A stretch of 64,000 nt of DNA from Halothece sp. PCC 7418 (lineage in GTDB: Bacteria; Cyanobacteriota; Cyanobacteriia; Cyanobacteriales; Rubidibacteraceae), in NCBI RefSeq assembly GCF_000317635.1, contig NC_019779.1, positions 2,790,001 through 2,854,000 on the forward strand. The letters are read 5' to 3'. Of the stretch, positions 1-9,680 are shown in pieces. Numbering within the stretch: the first letter of the stretch is position 1; each line of letters begins with the position of its first letter. Under the pieces are notes generated by a model. It worked only from the letters and a program-made list of their open reading frames with translations, ran no database searches and was not told the origin of the DNA. The translations under genes and the position numbers were made by a program.

Positions 1-489
1 CGGATTCCTATTCAGGTGGAAGAGTTTGTGGGGTTGGGTTGGCATCGTTTGAGCCTCCAATTTCCTTGGTCGCATCAAAAACAATGTAGCCTTGCTGTGG
101 AAGAAGCCTTAAGCCGAGTTGAGGGTCTTTCTCTTCGCCATAAACCGATTAGTCAGCTTTCTGGAGGAGAAACGAAGCGGGTGTTACTGGCTTATTGTTT
201 GGTGCGCCCACGACGCTTGTTGATTTTGGATGAAGCCCCCGCAGGCTTAGACTTTCGCGGTGAATCCGACTTTTATCAGTTACTGTATGAACTGAAAAAA
301 GAACAGGACTGGGCAATTTTACAAATTTCTCATGATTTAGATATGGTCAGACGACACTGCGATCGCGTGATTTGTTTTAATCGCAATATCTTGTGTCAAG
401 GTTCTCCTGAATCAGCCCTCTCTTCAGAAAATCTCGCTTTGGCTTATGGAGAAGAGTTTGTTCGTTATCAACATTCTTGCAAGGAATAA
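1..489 (+). CDS. znuC: Zinc/manganese ABC transporter ATP-binding protein (3' part)
   Basis: ATPase subunit of a metal-uptake ABC importer. The frame is open from the first base, so the start and Walker A lie outside the window. Visible parts are the ABC signature LSGGETKRV, Walker B RLLILDEAPAGLD and the H-loop ISHD, followed by the short C-terminal tail usual for ZnuC/MntB-type ATPases, which carry no extra domain. A ZnuB-type permease follows 107 bases downstream on the same strand. The substrate (zinc rather than manganese) is inferred from the neighbourhood: PyrC, a metal-sensing ArsR and a Zur-type box. The solute-binding subunit would be expected upstream, outside the window. Confidence 0.85.
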   Translation, partial: RIPIQVEEFVGLGWHRLSLQFPWSHQKQCSLAVEEALSRVEGLSLRHKPISQLSGGETKRVLLAYCLVRPRRLLILDEAPAGLDFRGESDFYQLLYELKKEQDWAILQISHDLDMVRRHCDRVICFNRNILCQGSPESALSSENLALAYGEEFVRYQHSCKE

Positions 490-596: not shown

Positions 597-1421
597 ATGA
601 TTTTAGAAACCGAAATCACCCGCGCTTTGGGGTTATTAGAATTTCCTTTCATGCAACGCGCCTTAATTGGCGGTGTTCTCACGGGGTTAATGGGAGGAAT
701 CCTCGGCAGTTTCACGATTTTAAGACAGTTATCCTTCTTCAGTGATGCTTTAGGACACTCGGCACTTTTGGGGATTAGTCTGGGGTTACTGTTGGGGTTG
801 AATCCCTCCCTGATTTTGTTACCCTTTGCGGTCATTTTTGCGTTTGGTATTGCCTATCTTTTGCAACGGACAGAACTCTGGACAGATGCGTTACTCAATA
901 TTGTCTATTCTTCTTCTTTAGCTGTGGGGATTATTATTCTCAGTTTTGTCGATCAGTACAAAGGAAGCATCAACAGTTTACTCTTCGGGGATATTCTCGC
1001 TGTGGGAGAAGGAGATTTAATATTAAGCGGTTTCCTCTTGCTGTGTTGTCTGGCTTTTATTGGTCTAACCTTGCGGACTCAACTGTTACTAACCTTAAAT
1101 GAATCCCTCGCGATCGCGCGGGGCATTTCAGTTTCCCTTCATCGTACCTTATTTATCGTTCTCCTCTCCTTAGTCGTCGCCGTTTCCATCAAAGCGGTAG
1201 GCGTTTTACTCGTGAGTGCGTTTGTGGTTATTCCCGCTTGTACAGCGCGATTATTGAGTCGCGGTTTTAGTCATTATGTGTTGTTTTCTGCCAGTTTCGG
1301 GGTGTTCTGTGCAGTATTGGGCATTATCCTCTCTGCGCTGTTCGATTTGCCCTCGGGTCCGAGTATTGTCGCCACCCAGTTCGGTGTCTTTTTGAGCGCA
1401 ATCGGATTAAGAAGAACTTAA
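597..1421 (+). CDS. znuB: Zinc/manganese ABC transporter permease
   Basis: Membrane subunit of the importer whose ATPase precedes it. The 274-residue protein has about eight hydrophobic segments. It shows the ABC-3 family pattern: an N-terminal block FMQRALIGGVLTGLMGGILG, then SDALGHSALLG, a central SSSLAVGIIIL and the late segment VKAVGVLLVSAF-like stretch near residues 198-210. Length is normal for ZnuB/MntC-type permeases. The start ATG at 597 leaves residues 1-20 ahead of the first membrane helix, as usual. Zinc rather than manganese is inferred from context. Confidence 0.88.
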   Translation: MILETEITRALGLLEFPFMQRALIGGVLTGLMGGILGSFTILRQLSFFSDALGHSALLGISLGLLLGLNPSLILLPFAVIFAFGIAYLLQRTELWTDALLNIVYSSSLAVGIIILSFVDQYKGSINSLLFGDILAVGEGDLILSGFLLLCCLAFIGLTLRTQLLLTLNESLAIARGISVSLHRTLFIVLLSLVVAVSIKAVGVLLVSAFVVIPACTARLLSRGFSHYVLFSASFGVFCAVLGIILSALFDLPSGPSIVATQFGVFLSAIGLRRT

Positions 1422-2263: not shown

Positions 2264-2359
2264 GATTATTCCTTGGGTAGTGATGAGGGGAGTGAACTTT
2301 GCAATATCGTCATGTCACCTAACGACGTGAAACCTTTATTTTCATCTTATAATGAAGGA

Positions 2360-3388
2360 ATGCAAAAGCTCACCATTACCCGACCTGACGACTGGCATCT
2401 GCATCTCCGTGATGGTGCAATCCTAAAAGCGGTTCTGCCCTACACAGTGCGCCAGTTTGCCCGCGCGATCGTCATGCCAAACTTGAAGCCTCCGATCCGC
2501 TCAGTTGCGGATGCAAAAGCCTATCGCGATCGCATCCTCGCTGCCATTCCAGAGGACAAACCGTTTGAACCATTGATGACGCTCTATCTCACCGACAACA
2601 CAACCCCCGACGAGATCTTCCGAGCGAAAGAATCCCAATTTATCAAAGCAGTTAAATACTACCCAGCTGGGGCAACAACCAACTCAGATTCTGGTGTAAC
2701 GGATATTCGCAAGTGCGATCGCGCGTTTGAAGCAATGCAGGAAGTAGATATGCCGTTACTACTGCACGGGGAAGTGACCGATCGCGATGTTGATACGTTT
2801 GATCGCGAGAAGGTGTTTATCGAGCGACATTTAATCCCCCTCAAGCAAAGATTTCCTAACCTGCGGGTGGTGCTTGAGCATATCACCACTTCTGATGCAG
2901 TGCAGTATGTTCTCTCTACCAGCGCGATCGCGGCAACTATTACGCCACAACATTTGTTATTTAACCGTAATGCCCTGTTTAAAGGTGGTCTGCGTCCCCA
3001 TTTTTATTGCTTGCCGATTTTGAAACGGGAGGAGCATCGTCAGGCTTTGTTACAAGCAGCAACATCAGGGAATCCGAAGTTTTTTCTCGGTACGGATAGT
3101 GCTCCCCATACCCGCACCAGCAAAGAAAGTTCCTGTGGTTGCGCGGGATGCTTTTCGGCGCTGCACGCCCTTGAGTTGTATGCCGAAGCATTTGAAAGTA
3201 TGCAAGCCCTAGATAAACTGGAAGCCTTCGCTAGCTTTTATGGTCCAGATTTTTATCAACTACCGCGTAATACCGAGCGAGTTACCTTGTCTAAAACGAC
3301 TTGGCGCGTTCCTGATCAAGTTCCATTAATGGAATCTGGGCTTGTCCCTTTAGGGGCGGGGCAGGAAATGACATGGCAAATGATATGA
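2360..3388 (+). CDS. pyrC: Dihydroorotase, class II
   Basis: Zinc enzyme of pyrimidine synthesis that interconverts carbamoyl aspartate and dihydroorotate. Metal and substrate motifs are all visible: HLHLRDG (residues 13-19), MPNLKPP, the bridging lysine in [32 protein letters not shown] and [11 protein letters not shown], with [10 protein letters not shown] as in the E. coli-type enzyme. ATG 2360 gives 342 residues and starts as the family usually does ([19 protein letters not shown]). Upstream in-frame ATG 2312 would add a non-conserved leader. It stands among metal-handling genes, which is notable because dihydroorotase copies are zinc-responsive in some bacteria; I see no Zur box in front of this one. 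Confidence 0.93.
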
Positions 3389-3939: not shown

Positions 3940-4555
3940 ATGGCTGATAATTGCTGTCAAGGGAAAACTCAAGCTCTCGAAAAGCTAAAAGGACGACAAA
4001 AGCGGGTTCTTTGGATCGTCTTAGGGATTAATGCTGTAATGTTTTTTGTCGAATTTGGGGGAGGGGTACGCGCCCAAGCGCTCTCGCTAACGGGTGATTC
4101 TCTGGATATGCTCGGGGATACGAAGCGTGTATGGGAGCAGTCTCTATGTGCTGAATCAAGGTCGCAAAGCACAAGCGAAATCAGCTTTATTGAAAGGGGG
4201 AATTATGTTTCTCTCCGCGATCGCGGTATTTGCGCGAGCAACCTACCAGCTTTTTGTCGGGGGAATACCTAATGCTCATCTCATGAGCAGTATCGGTTTG
4301 TTGGCTCTAGGAGCAAATCTGATCTGTTTGTATTTACTGACTCGTCACCGCAACGACAACCTCAACATGAGTGCGGTTTGGCTGTGTTCTCGCAATGACA
4401 TTATCGCCAATACATCAGTTTTAGCGGCTGCAGGTCTTGTTTTTCTGACTCACTCTCCCATTCCTGATTTAGTGGTTGGACTATTGCTGACGGTTGTTTT
4501 TGCCAAATCAGCAGGGAAAGTCCTTTCTCAAGGATGGAGAGAACTGCAAGTTTAA
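3940..4555 (+). pseudogene. CDF-family metal exporter, frameshifted
   Basis: Two reading frames together make a short (about 205-residue) cation-diffusion-facilitator-type transporter without a C-terminal cytosolic domain. The first frame runs from MADNCCQGKTQALEKLKGRQ to SLTGDSLDMLGD (about 4119). The second resumes at VYGSSLYVLNQGRKAQAKSA (4127). The expected family join is DMLGD-x-x-VYG, so a single extra base within 4120-4126 explains the break. The second frame keeps the CDF-like SRNDIIAN element and the hydrophobic segments. Regulator and operators upstream look intact. The break may be a true mutation or a sequencing error. Confidence 0.8.
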
Positions 4556-5192: not shown

Positions 5193-5256
5193 GAACTAGG
5201 AATAGTCTCTATAGCGGTACCCAACAGACTGATCAAGAGTCTGTTAAACTATAATT

Positions 5257-5271
5257 TGATAATGATTATCA
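5257..5271. promoter_or_regulatory. Zur/Fur-type operator
   Basis: Perfect 7-1-7 palindrome TGATAATGATTATCA ending ten bases before the ATG of the G3E GTPase gene. This is the half-site architecture bound by Fur-superfamily repressors, and the core matches cyanobacterial Zur-type sites. Zur is favoured over Fur because the downstream gene is a G3E metal-chaperone relative and zinc-uptake genes lie nearby. Its position covering the start region implies repression when metal is plentiful. Confidence 0.75.
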
Positions 5272-5281
5272 TTTTGAAATT

Positions 5282-6040
5282 ATGAGTTCTCCTTCTCTAA
5301 TTGCAGTAGCAGGACCCTCTGGCAGTGGGAAAACCACTTGGATTAGCCAGTATTTAAAACAACCCGCTACTCCCACCTATTACCTTTGTCCAGGCTTAGG
5401 GAATGCTTCAGTTGATCTCGCTGGTATCAATTATCGTTTTCCTTGGGTACAAACGATTCAAGACACAGAAGCGCAAACCATTCTCAGCAGACTCTCGGAA
5501 GAAGCAGTGGTTTATGTGGAATTAGGGTTTTATTTGGATCTAGCCTCCCCTGTTCTCACTTCCTTTCCTTGTCATCGGGTGGCGGTTGTTCCCCCAGAAA
5601 CTGAATCGTCACAATGGCAAAACTGGGCTGATGAAATCATTACTGGCAATTCTGTTCAATTCTCACAATATGGTGACTCGCCTCAAATTTGGTGTCGCCC
5701 CTTAACGGGACAAGTATTTGATCCGCCCAGCTTAGAAACGATTTGGATGGAAATCATCGGGGGTGCTTATGGTCAAGTGCAACGGGCGAAAGGTCTTTTT
5801 GAACTTCCTGATGGAACGCTGATCCAGATGGATTTTGTCGATGCGCTTCCTGGTAGCGAGTATCGAGAGTTAAATGTTCCTCGGTGGTTGGAAGGGCGAC
5901 CGAATCGTTTTAGTGGAATGGAAGTGGTGGGCTGGAATTTGGAAGAAAGCACTATTAAACAGATTTTACTGGAGAGTTGCTTGTCAGATCATGCCCTGAG
6001 CCAGTATCAAAGTTATTATCAGGAGACGATCGCGTTATGA
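5282..6040 (+). CDS. CobW-like G3E-family GTPase (COG0523-related), divergent
   Basis: 252-residue P-loop protein related to CobW/COG0523 metal-delivery GTPases. Walker A GPSGSGKTT is at residues 11-19. VVYVELGFYLDLASP sits where G3E proteins have their E-x-SG-ADP motif, and the C-terminal part KGLFELPDGTLIQMDFVDA resembles the CobW C-terminal domain. It is shorter than classical CobW (about 320-350), has no CxCC metal motif after Walker A, and no clear NKxD guanine motif, so nucleotide specificity is uncertain. A perfect Zur-type box lies directly upstream, and the stop overlaps the next start as ATGA. Likely a zinc-starvation protein (inference). Confidence 0.75.
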   Translation: MSSPSLIAVAGPSGSGKTTWISQYLKQPATPTYYLCPGLGNASVDLAGINYRFPWVQTIQDTEAQTILSRLSEEAVVYVELGFYLDLASPVLTSFPCHRVAVVPPETESSQWQNWADEIITGNSVQFSQYGDSPQIWCRPLTGQVFDPPSLETIWMEIIGGAYGQVQRAKGLFELPDGTLIQMDFVDALPGSEYRELNVPRWLEGRPNRFSGMEVVGWNLEESTIKQILLESCLSDHALSQYQSYYQETIAL

Positions 6041-6846
6041 AATTAGCTGTTATTTCCTGCATTCATGGCAATTATGAAGCCTTAACTGCTGTTTTATCCG
6101 ACATTGAAGCCCAAAAAGCCGATCGCGTTTACTGTTTAGGAGATTTAGTCGGTTATGGTCCCTATCCTAACGAAGTAGTTGAGTTAATTCGGGATTTAGA
6201 GATTCCCACCTGTCAAGGCTGTTGGGATGAAGATGTGGTGGAAGGGTTAGACGCTTGTGAGTGTAGTTATCCCTCGCAAATCGCAGAAAAACGGGGAAAA
6301 CTTGCCCATGAATGGACCAATCGGGTTCTGAAATCAGACGTGCGGGACTATTTAGCCAATTTACCGATGATTCTGAAAGAAGACAATCTCTGTTTTGTTC
6401 ACGGTAGCCCCAACAGCCAACATGAATATCTCTTACCTGATACAGCAGGATTAATTGCACTGGAACGAGTTTTATCCATAGGGGCGGATACCTTGTTTTG
6501 TGGACATACCCACATTCCTTATGTTCGCAAGTTAGACAATATGAAGTTATCGGTGCAAGTGCAACAACCCGAAAAAATGAGCAACAACACCCTGACCACG
6601 CCGATGAAACGAATTATCAATGCTGGGTCAGTAGGAGAACCCCGTCACGGAAAACCCGATGCGACGTATGTTCTGTATGATACTGAAACTGAAGAAGTGA
6701 CGTTGCGGGAAGTTCCTTATAATTACACTAAAACCTGTTTAGCCATTTTAGAACAAGGACTGCCCCCGATTTTTGCTTGGCGGTTAGCGCGAGGTCTGGA
6801 GTTTGCAGAAAAAGCAGATGATCCGACTCATGTTTGTCAGAAGTGA
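6037..6846 (+). CDS. Metallophosphoesterase-fold protein with Cys-substituted ligands
   Basis: 269 residues from ATG 6037, which overlaps the GTPase stop (ATGA), a sign of translational coupling. The calcineurin-like fold is clear: VISCIHGNYEAL, LGDLVGYGPYP, CFVHGSP, TLFCGHTHIP and a late INAGSVGEPRHGKPDATYVL. Two metal ligands differ from the family norm. Motif I D-x-H is C8-x-H10, and in motif III the usual G-N-H-D reads G-C-W-D with Cys62. Both changes bring in cysteine, so metal choice or activity may have shifted towards zinc. Substrate unknown; related YfcE-type proteins cleave phosphodiesters. Confidence 0.82.
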   Translation: MKLAVISCIHGNYEALTAVLSDIEAQKADRVYCLGDLVGYGPYPNEVVELIRDLEIPTCQGCWDEDVVEGLDACECSYPSQIAEKRGKLAHEWTNRVLKSDVRDYLANLPMILKEDNLCFVHGSPNSQHEYLLPDTAGLIALERVLSIGADTLFCGHTHIPYVRKLDNMKLSVQVQQPEKMSNNTLTTPMKRIINAGSVGEPRHGKPDATYVLYDTETEEVTLREVPYNYTKTCLAILEQGLPPIFAWRLARGLEFAEKADDPTHVCQK

Positions 6847-6859
6847 GGAAGCTGGAACA

Positions 6860-7579
6860 ATGACACAGTGGGCGATTTTAAGCGGGATTGAAGGGAATTT
6901 ACAGGCTTATGAGGCGGTTCTCGCTGATATTAAGGGTCAAGAAATTCCAGTTACAGCGATCTACATTCTAGGAGATATCATTGGGTTACAGGGCGATAAT
7001 GAAGCAGTAGTGAAACGGATTCAGTTTCCTTACGCCGATGAAGTGAAACCGCAAGTGTGTACGGGGTGGTGGGAAGAACAATGTTTTGATTTGTATGCTT
7101 TCAGTGGTGTTGGAGAAGCCGTCGCCTTACGAGAACGTTATGGGACTGATGCGATTCTCAAGTTATGGGAATCTGTTTCCAGAGAAACCGTACAATGGTT
7201 ACGCAGTCTGGACTTTGGCTTTCACGAAGAAGACTGTTTGCTCATTCATGGCAGTACCGTAAGTTACGATGACGAGTTGACTCCCGAAACACCAGCGATT
7301 CAAATCTGTGACCGTGTTCTCAGAACAGAAGCAGAGACCTTATTTTGTGGGCGATCGGGGTTAACCTTTACCTACTCTGTGGAAAGAGCAAGTCTTGATT
7401 CCAGCACCCGAACCTTAGAAAAAACACAACAAACGTCACAAGAAACCCTGGCATTTTGTCGAGTGATTGGTGTGGGTAATGTGGGACATACGCCCCAAAA
7501 ATCGACCTATACTTTATATCAACCCCTGACCAAACAAGTAACCTTTCAAACCGTTGACTATCCAACCAATCCTCCATAA
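6860..7579 (+). CDS. Degenerate metallophosphoesterase paralogue
   Basis: 239 residues from ATG 6860. It is collinear with the preceding protein (LSGIEGNLQAYEAVLADI against ISCIHGNYEALTAVLSDI; YILGDIIG; CLLIHGST; TLFCGRSGL), so the pair arose by duplication. The metal-binding motifs are largely lost: motif I has Gly9 and Glu11 in place of Asp and His, motif III reads TGWWEE, and the final G-H-x-H is GRSG. It is probably catalytically dead but keeps an intact frame, which suggests a binding or regulatory role. The start follows the upstream stop by 13 bases. The 3' end overlaps the convergent permease gene by 22 bases. Confidence 0.75.
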   Translation: MTQWAILSGIEGNLQAYEAVLADIKGQEIPVTAIYILGDIIGLQGDNEAVVKRIQFPYADEVKPQVCTGWWEEQCFDLYAFSGVGEAVALRERYGTDAILKLWESVSRETVQWLRSLDFGFHEEDCLLIHGSTVSYDDELTPETPAIQICDRVLRTEAETLFCGRSGLTFTYSVERASLDSSTRTLEKTQQTSQETLAFCRVIGVGNVGHTPQKSTYTLYQPLTKQVTFQTVDYPTNPP

Positions 7580-8880
7580 ATCAAGCCACTCAACATCGCA
7601 CAGACCACCACAAGGAAAGCAAACACTGCTGTTTTCTTTGTCCCCAAAAGACTGCGAATGACCAACAAATTTGGGAGTGAAATGGCAGGACCGGCAAGTA
7701 ATAACGCCAAAGCAGGTCCTTGTCCCATCCCATTGCCAATTAACCCTTGTAGAATTGGAACTTCCGTTAGTGTAGCAAAATACATAAATGCCCCGATAAT
7801 TGCAGCAAAGAAATTAGCCAACAAGGAATTTCCCCCTACAGCCTGCACAATCGATCCTGAAGGGATCAGAGCTTCCTGTTGCGGACGACCTAATAAGAAT
7901 CCAGCCACTAAAATTCCCATCAGCAAAAGAGGTAAAATTTGCTTGGCATTATCCCAAGAAGACTCAAACCAGTCTCCTGCTTCTCCTTGATGAGTGCTAG
8001 TCAGCCAAGATAAACCAACCACAGCAACACTAAAGGGAACTAAAGGGGTTTCACTAAATTGCCAAGACAGCACTGACGTTACCGCGGCGATTAAAATTAC
8101 CTTTCCTCGGTTCAAATGAAACCAGACAACCAGCATGACAGCTAAGGCTAAACCGAGTAATCCTGTCAGCCACCATTTTAGGGAATCAACCCTATACCAA
8201 AAGCCTGTGGTAGTTTCTGGTTCTGCCCAATTCGCAAAGACTAAAATTCCCACTAAAACCGCGAAAAATAACGCATTTTGCCATAAGGGGCGGGTTTCTT
8301 CTTCATCAGGGAGAATGGCTGAACCATTTCTTTCATCAGGTTCATCTTTAAATGCAAATTGCATCCCTAAGCCAATAATAATACTAAACGCGATCGCGCC
8401 GATCGCACGGGCGATTCCGAGTTGCACTCCTAAAACCTTTGCAGTCAGAATAATCGCTAAAACATTAATCGCAGGCCCCGAATAGAGAAACGTAATCGCA
8501 GGTCCTAACCCTGCACCTCGGCGGTAAATCCCTGCAAACAAAGGAAGCACCGTACAGGAACAAACGGCCAAAATAATCCCAGAAACAGAAGCCACCCCGT
8601 AAGAAACAAAGGGATTAGCTTTACTACCGAGATATTTCATAATAGCATTTTGACCTAAGAAAACCGCGATCGCGCCCGCAATAAAAAATGCTGGAATCAA
8701 ACACAGTAAAACGTGCTCTTGAGCATACCACCGCACCAGATAAAGGGCTTCCCAGAAGGCTTGTTCTACCCGTTCTGATTGCTGTAAAACATTGACTGGT
8801 AAATAGAAACACAGTAGGAAAACACCAATAATAACTGATAGCGGTTTCCATTCTTCCCGCCAAAATGACGATTTTTCCAT
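7558..8880 (-). CDS. UPF0718/ArsP-like permease
   Basis: 440-residue inner-membrane protein with about ten hydrophobic segments. It belongs to the predicted permease family UPF0718 (DUF318), which includes ArsP and SO_0444-type metal exporters. The hallmark CSCTVLPLFAGIYRRGAGLG lies around residues 106-125 and the repeat element LLLAGPAISLPNLLVIR near the C terminus. The pair of cysteines in CSCT is family-conserved and may bind a thiophilic metal or metalloid. It is the last gene of the MerR-thioredoxin-permease unit and lies 87 bases after the thioredoxin gene. Export of a toxic metal or metalloid is inferred; the exact substrate cannot be told. Confidence 0.85.
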   Translation of the reverse strand: MEKSSFWREEWKPLSVIIGVFLLCFYLPVNVLQQSERVEQAFWEALYLVRWYAQEHVLLCLIPAFFIAGAIAVFLGQNAIMKYLGSKANPFVSYGVASVSGIILAVCSCTVLPLFAGIYRRGAGLGPAITFLYSGPAINVLAIILTAKVLGVQLGIARAIGAIAFSIIIGLGMQFAFKDEPDERNGSAILPDEEETRPLWQNALFFAVLVGILVFANWAEPETTTGFWYRVDSLKWWLTGLLGLALAVMLVVWFHLNRGKVILIAAVTSVLSWQFSETPLVPFSVAVVGLSWLTSTHQGEAGDWFESSWDNAKQILPLLLMGILVAGFLLGRPQQEALIPSGSIVQAVGGNSLLANFFAAIIGAFMYFATLTEVPILQGLIGNGMGQGPALALLLAGPAISLPNLLVIRSLLGTKKTAVFAFLVVVCAMLSGLIYGGLVG

Positions 8881-8967
8881 GATTCTCCCTCCTTAATAAC
8901 GAAAAATGAACAGATACACGCCCCCCGTCTTTGAGGAGAGGCTTCAATCGAGATGTCCTAATCGGGT

Positions 8968-9210
8968 TTAGGCTTTTAAGTAGGGTTGAATTTCTTGAGC
9001 ACTTAGCACTTTTCCCTGTGTTACGACTTGATCGTTAATAACCAAAGCGGGGGTTTTCATTACCCCTCGTTCTGCAATTTGCATGGGATCAGTGGTATGG
9101 AAAACGTCTCCCTCTAAATCAAGATTAGTCAGCGCAGCTTTCACATTCGCTTCGAGTTGCTGACATTTTTTACAGCCTGTTCCTAAAACTTCGGCTTTAA
9201 TTGCACTCAT
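8968..9210 (-). CDS. Small thioredoxin-like protein (MTH895/TM0996 type)
   Basis: 80-residue glutaredoxin-fold protein with the redox pair GTGCKKCQQLEANV at residues 11-24 and the cis-proline segment MKTPALVINDQVV. Length and motifs match the family called redox-active disulfide protein 2, often encoded beside UPF0718 permeases. In the operon it would reduce or pass on a thiol-bound metal or metalloid to the permease (inference). It is preceded by a MerR-type dyad promoter, which places it as the first gene of the controlled transcript. Confidence 0.87.
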   Translation of the reverse strand: MSAIKAEVLGTGCKKCQQLEANVKAALTNLDLEGDVFHTTDPMQIAERGVMKTPALVINDQVVTQGKVLSAQEIQPYLKA

Positions 9211-9233
9211 CGTTAGATTTCCCCTTCATTAAT

Positions 9234-9280
9234 AACTGATTAATTTCAGAGTAATCCTTATACTGTAGTATAAGGTCAAG
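9234..9280 (-). promoter_or_regulatory. MerR-type promoter with perfect dyad operator
   Basis: A 9-2-9 perfect dyad (CCTTATACT-GT-AGTATAAGG, 9256-9275) sits between the merR-like gene and the thioredoxin gene. Read on the minus strand, a TTGACC -35 overlaps the dyad edge. A 19-base spacer leads to a TTACTC -10-like hexamer. The overlong spacer centred on a dyad is the signature of promoters untwisted by MerR-family activators. It should drive the thioredoxin-permease transcript. Confidence 0.75.
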
Positions 9281-9680
9281 GGGTTTCGGAAAAATCATCA
9301 AGAGCAATACATTCGCGATCTTGATCAAGATAGGCTTCACAGTGTTTGAGTAAAGGGACAAGTTCTGCTCGTAATTGGGAATAGCGATTAATTTTTCGGT
9401 CAATTTCGGTAATTTTCTGTTGTAATCGCTCATAAACCGCTTGACAAGTCAGCGATTCTCCCTCTTTCAGGGCTAAAATTTCTTTGATTTCCTCAAGGGT
9501 TAACCCCAATGATTTAACACGGAGGATAAATGAGAGGCGTTCTATATCTTCTTCGTTGTAAAGGCGAAAACCACTTTTTGTTCTCTGAGGGGAGGGAATT
9601 AAACCAATCCTTTCATAAAAATAGAGCGTTTGCGGATTCACTCCTAACTGATGAGAGACTTCGCTAATCTTTAAGCCCAT
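9276..9680 (-). CDS. MerR-family metal-responsive activator
   Basis: 134 residues. The N-terminal winged helix is KISEVSHQLGVNPQTLYFYERIGLI, followed by the usual RTKSGFRLYNEEDIERLSFI wing. A long dimerisation helix covers residues 75-110. Three cysteines lie in the places used by ZntR/CadR/PbrR-type sensors: one in LTCQAV and two in KHCEAYLDQDREC. This suggests a soft divalent metal inducer. It is transcribed in the same direction as, and upstream of, the thioredoxin and permease genes, with a matching MerR dyad promoter between. Its own stop codon abuts the dyad. Confidence 0.9.
   Translation of the reverse strand: MGLKISEVSHQLGVNPQTLYFYERIGLIPSPQRTKSGFRLYNEEDIERLSFILRVKSLGLTLEEIKEILALKEGESLTCQAVYERLQQKITEIDRKINRYSQLRAELVPLLKHCEAYLDQDRECIALDDFSETP

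Follow-up and report, generated by a model that had tools for sequence, protein, structure and literature searches.

A three-gene operon of the cyanobacterium Halothece sp. PCC 7418 is, judging from its sequence and from that of its relatives, very probably under the control of Zur. It lies in a stretch of 64,000 nucleotides (contig NC_019779.1, positions 2,790,001 to 2,854,000 of the forward strand; the window) and comprises three open reading frames (ORFs), which encode a predicted nucleoside triphosphatase (NTPase) of the COG0523/YjiA fold (ORF1), a Cys/His-rich protein of the metallophosphoesterase fold (ORF2), and a degenerate paralogue of the latter (ORF3). Comparison with related genomes shows a conserved operon with a Zur-type box and a neighborhood of genes for zinc uptake and zinc sparing, in which the NTPase has lost its metal motif and its partner has gained Cys residues. 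Tentatively, and with a likelihood somewhat short of even, the trio is predicted to be a split zinc metallochaperone, in which the metal would be carried on ORF2 and not on the NTPase. The zinc-starvation unit proposed in an initial annotation of this DNA is strongly supported by the conserved boxes, by the linkage to zinc genes and, in the available text of a published study, by the derepression that a zur mutation and TPEN cause in a truncated ORF1 of Synechococcus PCC 7002 (PMC4628125).

Zinc can be limiting for photosynthetic microbes, and the COG0523 zinc chaperones, which are studied from bacteria to man, have few known clients. An NTPase that lacks its own metal motif and is locked to a Cys-rich partner would separate the NTPase and metal roles, both of which are testable, and the trio may be an unrecognized way of handling scarce zinc. 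The features of the operon are the following:

5250..5255, + strand: TATAAT, a -10-like hexamer immediately 5' of the box, by sequence reading
5257..5271, + strand: Zur-type 7-1-7 palindrome TGATAATGATTATCA, an exact 15-mer, conserved ahead of many ORF1 orthologues
5282..6040, + strand: ORF1, a P-loop protein of the COG0523/YjiA fold without CxCC and NKxD, 252 residues
6037..6040, + strand: ATGA, the stop of ORF1 overlapping the start of ORF2
6037..6846, + strand: ORF2, a Cys/His-rich metallophosphoesterase-fold protein, 269 residues
6860..7579, + strand: ORF3, a degenerate ORF2 paralogue, 239 residues

The ATGA coupling of ORF1 and ORF2 noted in the initial annotation holds, and the four-nucleotide overlap recurs in relatives (in 66 of the 77 named loci and in 33 of the 59 others, two sets that share some organisms). 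The start of ORF3 is most likely the ATG at 6860, with the 258-residue ORF representing a longer TTG frame.

The box and its genomic setting

The perfect box that had been described ahead of the three genes stands alone in the window, where no other site comes within one mismatch of TGATAATGATTATCA and shuffled sequences lead one to expect 0.01; counting this one, the genome holds five exact copies. Since TATAAT lies directly 5' of the box in the window, a repressor bound there would, on this reading, cover the start site; none of the promoters listed by a consensus promoter scan uses the hexamer at 5250-5255. The whole-genome scan (4,179,170 bases, one contig) located the exact copies at 577883, 2767464, 2785204, 2788553, and 2795257, the last being that of the trio, and the genes behind them were named from ORF reading and a Pfam scan. 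Box 577883 precedes a ZnuA protein gene with ABC partners. Box 2788553 stands before a second ZnuA gene, behind which lie the ABC genes of the window's left edge, and box 2785204 before a COG0523 gene that is divided between two frames in the assembly and has a WD40 protein gene behind it. Both one-mismatch sites of the genome fall inside ORFs, and weaker sites are unreliable, because a scan allowing two mismatches gave 57 matches against 28 with the reversed control. Behind box 2767464 stands an OprB porin that carries an SLH domain (G000:C1:2767464-2769089, L235), a candidate zinc porin.

In relatives, the box was scored as the best match to TGATAATNATTATCA, with at least 12 of 14 positions, within 250 base pairs (bp) upstream of ORF1. 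Such a match is present at 34 of 69 ORF1 loci, a set that includes the window and from which two loci without the N-terminus were dropped, compared with 42 of 2041 (2%) random 250-bp windows taken from the same zinc-rich loci; in a partly overlapping set of named loci it is present at 37 of 76. When putative operon heads were considered as well, in windows of up to 325 bp at the 126 ORF1-bearing loci among 129 non-identical ones, 56 loci have their own box and 19 a box at the operon head, while one is too short to tell. Searching cyanobacterial genomes for the trio together with a box, as the initial annotation had suggested, has brought out a recurrent linkage.

Four small genomes of one family (f11), taken to be picocyanobacteria on account of their size and divergence, were scanned for TGAGAATNATTCTCA with at most one mismatch. 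G139 has two sites, one at the trio and one between ZnuA and ABC genes. G132 has four, of which one is at the trio, two precede a CxCC-containing COG0523 gene, and one is at ZnuA. G146 has five, including one at ORF1 and one at ORF3, 7 kb away, with the same 15-mer before both. The reversed pattern gave 0, 0, 0, and 1 matches in G139, G132, G146, and G153, respectively. The WH8102 genes SYNW0968-0973 were considered as a trio, and no claim is made for them; at L247 and L254, two loci in other genomes of the picocyanobacteria-like family, the ZnuA-adjacent genes are different from ORF1-3.

Among 194 genomes of the class Cyanobacteriia, ORF1 is present in 64, ORF2 (E at most 1e-30) in 60, and ORF3 in 70, some of the ORF3 matches being weak or cross-matches to ORF2. 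ORF1 accompanies ORF2 in 59 of the 60 genomes, and in the other one, G188, ORF2 is cut at a contig end. The order ORF1-ORF2-ORF3 is kept in nearly all loci showing all three genes, the exceptions being L201 and L204, in which ORF3 lies upstream of ORF1. ORF3 may also lie at a distance from the other two: 25 of the 114 loci show it apart from ORF2, and in four of these a box with 12 or more of 14 positions lies ahead of ORF3. The idea that ORF3 is made solely from the ORF1 operon does not always hold, given these separated loci, some of them with their own box, as in G146.

A two-motif scan of the genome collection for ORF2 returned 347 relatives, and the best 80 of these are cyanobacterial by title, except for one metagenome-assembled genome labeled Gracilibacteria, which is probably mis-binned. 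Judged from these 80, the module is likely confined to cyanobacteria. In a genome of the same genus (G194, L262) ORF2 is broken by several stops, and G196, which is 85% complete, has no match; the module may be undergoing loss in some close relatives.

Neighbors were counted from -7 to +8 kb at the 129 loci and named from annotated plasmid records, from Pfam scans of some representatives, and otherwise by sequence reading; many contigs are shorter than this range, so that all counts are lower bounds. The trio is accompanied by COG0523 proteins (at least 56 loci), HemB (40), FolE (40), ZnuA (24), ZnuC (22), and ZnuB (19), as well as by an FAD/NAD(P) protein in at least 55, mostly on the opposite strand. 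Also found are WD40 proteins (at least 22), Fur-family proteins (18), methyltransferases (16), SmtB-like proteins (11), and HisI (11), and more rarely ThrS (at least 10), CDF (8), and CysS (7). Genes resembling zur are among these neighbors. The available text on the Zur regulon of Anabaena 7120 lists znuABC, COG0523, hemB2, thrS2, and a folE, several of which are neighbors of the trio (PMC6103462). In general, the Zur regulons of Anabaena 7120, PCC 7002, and WH8102 have znuABC, hemB2, folE, thrS2, and COG0523 in common with the neighborhood of the trio, while the trio itself is absent from the described members in the accessible accounts, being represented in PCC 7002 by remnants only.

These remnants lie on plasmid pAQ7 of Picosynechococcus PCC 7002 (L135, about 8430-9380), where DNA that finds no match in PCC 7117 has taken the place of the interior of the trio, including all of ORF2. 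PCC 7117 itself has the trio intact, as has Trichormus variabilis ATCC 29413. With G numbers mapped to RS tags by gene order on pAQ7, G0131 corresponds to residues 1-147 of PCC 7117 ORF1, and G0129 to the final 111 residues of the ORF3 of that strain. The replacement DNA encodes a protein of 235 residues. According to the available part of the PCC 7002 study, zur deletion and TPEN raised hemB-II, folE-II, G0131, and G0132, and there was no rise of G0129 (annotated as "phosphoesterase") and G0130 in the zur mutant (PMC4628125). As far as the accessible sources go, these are the sole published zur data found to touch the module, and they come from a strain that lost most of it. No description of the trio was found in the literature on cyanobacterial Zur, zinc limitation, and COG0523, in a search with thin coverage of subscription journals; the available text of PMC4628125 mentions the PCC 7002 remnants. 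The module may have been overlooked because PCC 7002, which has a published zur transcriptome, lost most of it.

The sequence TGATAATNATTATCA is also the classical 7-1-7 consensus for Fur, and cyanobacterial OprB-type porins have been linked to iron uptake. Together with the three Fur-family genes in the genome, this would fit a Fur box and an iron-starvation operon. This reading is rejected as the main one and considered highly improbable: four of the five exact boxes precede zinc-type genes or the trio, the fifth precedes the porin, and no iron gene was recognized behind any of these five sites of the TGATAATGATTATCA form. Moreover, the neighbors of the trio are largely zinc genes, and the orthologous fragment in PCC 7002 is derepressed in a zur mutant, as the accessible text of that study has it (PMC4628125).

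A divergent predicted NTPase and two phosphoesterase-fold proteins

ORF1 is modeled by AlphaFold2 with a mean predicted local distance difference test score (pLDDT) of 93.2. The best Foldseek match is YjiA (1nij, E 2.2e-8), followed by 4ixm and 4ixn, after which there is a gap of about four orders of magnitude. VIA aligns residues 2-234 to 1nij with a Z of 10.5 and a root-mean-square deviation of 14.7, a high value that is probably due to the angle between the domains, and its list is dominated by SRP GTPases (best Z 10.7) across the first 126 residues. The C-terminal domain matches 24 canonical COG0523 proteins in hhalign (E 1.1e-6, probability 91), and the P-loop and a C-terminal RxKG region are common to both in a joint alignment. 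Pfam CobW_C is found in ORF1 with an E of 0.046, its 14 bits falling short of the cut-off of 22. The Walker A motif of ORF1 in the window is GPSGSGKTT. Of 130 distinct ORF1 proteins, some of which are short, 111 have G..G.GK[TSN] within their first 60 residues.

The CobW-like GTPase without CxCC of the initial annotation is borne out in both respects, by the COG0523/YjiA fold found with Foldseek and by the motif count, since CxCC is present in none of the 130 proteins. None of them has [NT]KxD in residues 86-145 either. In contrast, CxCC is present in all 69 linked COG0523 proteins of 280-420 residues, six shorter cluster members being excluded. A search of its own genome with the cobW profile PF02492 gave seven matches, none of which is ORF1, and a Pfam scan to E 0.1 did not report this family for it. 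Because CxCC, NKxD, and a PF02492 match are all missing, ORF1 is not filed as a COG0523 member. It resembles the COG0523 GTPases, represented by YjiA (1nij/4ixm) and also including ZagA/YciC and ZigA, in its two-domain fold, Walker A motif, CobW_C-like C-terminus, and linkage to Zur, and differs from them in the three missing features and in being coupled to a phosphoesterase-fold partner.

This partner, ORF2, matches Pfam Metallophos_2 (PF12850) with 74.1 bits against a cut-off of 27. Its nearest structures are 3rqz of Sphaerobacter (E 1.5e-36), 1nnw, 2gju, and SapH/Spr1479 (3qfm, E 1.8e-8), the closest one with a named activity, which is titled as an asymmetric diadenosine tetraphosphate (Ap4A) hydrolase and phosphodiesterase. 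In its own genome, no other relative of ORF2 was found to E 10 except ORF3. The SDxH motif of 3rqz and SapH aligns to SCxH in ORF2, and GNHD or GNWED aligns to GCWDED. Motif III was placed by profile alignment and by fits to 1nnw, SapH, and ORF3; a single-sequence alignment that shifted the third motif of 3rqz by two residues was not followed.

Seven positions, which are taken here to be the metal ligands of the fold, were mapped onto ORF2 by the structure alignments. The metal ligands had been described as changed, and for ORF2 this applies to two of the seven, Asp8 and Asn62, both of which became Cys; the other five (H10, D36, H122, H157, and H159) are kept. Positions 8 and 62 presumably belong one to each half of the dinuclear site. 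The 62 orthologues that were found without the use of ORF2 motifs include that of the window and, in a few cases, more than one from an organism. Invariant in this set are C8, C33, C62, C74, C76, C155, and C267, as well as H10, H91, H122, H129, H157, H159, H204, and H265, while C234 is kept in 61. D36 is conserved at 97% or more in these 62 and invariant in sets of 15 and 43 sequences. Among 130 distinct ORF2 proteins, SCxH, CxCSYP, CGHTH, and HxC are present in all, and GCWDED in 129, a set of which 80 named members had been picked by two of the counted motifs.

ORF2 thus shares the fold and five of the seven ligands with SapH and 3rqz and the motif III Trp with SapH, and it differs from both in having Cys for Asp8 and Asn62 and additional invariant residues, namely CxC (74/76), HxC (265/267), C33, C155, and H204. 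The missing catalytic His was not accepted as proof that ORF2 is inactive, given that SapH also has Trp in this position. With metal-competent residues at all seven positions and a motif III Trp in common with SapH (GCWDED in ORF2, GNWED in SapH), ORF2 could be a client enzyme, a nucleotide phosphodiesterase resembling Ap4A or alarmone hydrolases, whose Cys-containing dinuclear site would be metallated at very low zinc or with another metal; ORF1 would then mature ORF2, and ORF3 would be a regulatory subunit. The usual G3E arrangement also pairs a dedicated NTPase with a client, according to the accessible text of a source on this family (PMC9164220). However, the replacement of Asp and Asn by Cys is absent from the aligned structural relatives (3rqz and SapH), and C74, C76, H265, and C267, for which an ordinary hydrolase has no need, are equally invariant outside the active site. 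This low-zinc phosphodiesterase is ranked as the main alternative and is considered rather unlikely.

The AlphaFold2 model of ORF2 has a mean pLDDT of 73.7, with values below 50 at residues 64-75, 125-144, and 263-269, segments where several invariant Cys and His residues are located (C74, H129, H265, and C267). Such segments would fit an ordering by metal or by a partner, and a shallow alignment of 43 similar sequences could have the same effect. Together with the richness in invariant Cys/His, they might be expected of a zinc buffer or reserve, or of a redox/zinc sensor, that works without NTPase-driven transfer and has ORF1 as a regulatory partner. Yet one would expect a store to be made at zinc excess and not under a repressor that opens upon starvation, and the near-obligate linkage to the NTPase would be left to explain, which makes this proposal improbable.

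ORF3 is homologous to ORF2 (hhalign E 1e-33), in agreement with the two paralogous phosphoesterase-fold proteins previously described, and has no Pfam or NCBIfam match to E 0.1. At the seven ligand positions, ORF3 of the window has Gly, Glu, Asp, Trp, His, Arg, and Gly, so that the reported change of metal ligands extends to five of the seven, with D39 and H130 retained. None of 112 ORF3 proteins has DxHx[ND] within its first 40 residues, and none has GNH[DE] or GHxH. By these sequence features, ORF3 is classed as a pseudo-phosphoesterase.

A predicted split metallochaperone

In the preferred reading, that of a split zinc metallochaperone, zinc-loaded Zur would block transcription, and the three proteins would be made together when zinc is scarce. 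ORF2 would be the metal-carrying half, in which the Cys8/Cys62 site, the five kept ligands, and the extra Cys/His residues would hold zinc tightly. Nucleotide binding or hydrolysis by ORF1, an NTPase of the COG0523 fold whose own metal motif is gone, would load ORF2 or release the metal from it, and ORF3 would serve as a scaffold or heterodimer partner. The clients of the metal on ORF2 may perhaps be FolE, HemB, or other neighbors. The putative role that had been given to ORF1, delivering metal to the phosphoesterase-fold partners or sensing it through them, is plausible.

The GTPase and the metal binder are also separate proteins in HypA/HypB and UreE/UreG. The trio would resemble these systems in combining a G3E-type NTPase with a separate metal-binding partner, and it is not a member of either family; ORF2 differs from HypA and UreE in its phosphoesterase fold. 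No nickel enzyme was seen among the named neighbor families of the trio.

Several points weigh against this reading. Fifty of the 126 loci have neither their own box nor one at the operon head in the available stretch. No zinc gene is evident at three of the five G146 sites or at any of the three sites of G153, and none of the latter is at the trio of that genome. ORF1 is matched without ORF2 in five of the 194 genomes (G037, G064, G086, G088, and G187), although G064 is cut at a contig end. The module is dispensable in PCC 7002, in which the zur response is kept even though ORF2 is gone. ORF2 keeps enough of the active site, including the SapH-like Trp, that it could be an enzyme instead of a carrier, and Zur binding, metal content, NTPase activity, and interactions among the members are all predictions from sequence.

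A more far-reaching and doubtful view is that the trio represents a new class of zinc-handling machine, in which the metal site of a G3E-type NTPase has moved to a protein derived from an Ap4A-hydrolase-like phosphoesterase, accompanied by a pseudo-phosphoesterase scaffold, and which would allocate the last zinc atoms. Such a machine would be used by about a third of the sampled cyanobacteria, probably including marine picocyanobacteria.

The zinc island and other neighbors

Two transporter genes lie at the left edge of the window:

1..489, + strand: znuC-like ABC transporter ATPase, below equivalog cut-offs, with its start outside the window
597..1421, + strand: zinc-type ABC permease, znuB/aztB-like (AztB 161.6 bits, below the equivalog cut-off of 280)

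Just upstream of the former is the ZnuA gene with its own exact box. Three genes of this zinc island are each split over two frames in the assembly, namely a CDF exporter (window 3940-4555), the Zur-boxed COG0523 gene (G000:C1:2785240-2786206), and an FAD/NAD(P) protein gene (G000:C1:2787293-2788523), through decay or sequencing error, while the trio is intact. The WD40 propeller gene that follows the Zur-boxed COG0523 gene (G000:C1:2786209-2787267, L236) has relatives that include L148:15211-16305. Within the island, window positions 2273-3388 encode a dimer-type dihydroorotase (TIGR00856, 516 bits); used as a query against the genome, this protein turned up no further copy. An Acaryochloris plasmid carries another dihydroorotase, close to folE and to a fragment of ORF1.

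On the other side of the trio, an ArsP_1-type permease gene (7558-8880) is convergent with ORF3, which it overlaps by 22 bases. It is followed by a small CxxC ORF (8968-9210), thioredoxin-like by reading, and the two are a possible metal/arsenic gene pair.

In other genomes, a protein of 138 residues (L194:1225-1638) matches PF20704, named "NucS shadow ORF" (E 1.4e-54), and has relatives near ORF1 in nine loci. In L168, L182, L084, and L126 its gene is the first of the ORF1 operon, preceded by a box that matches at 12 or more of 14 positions, and the protein may be the product of a real zinc-starvation gene.

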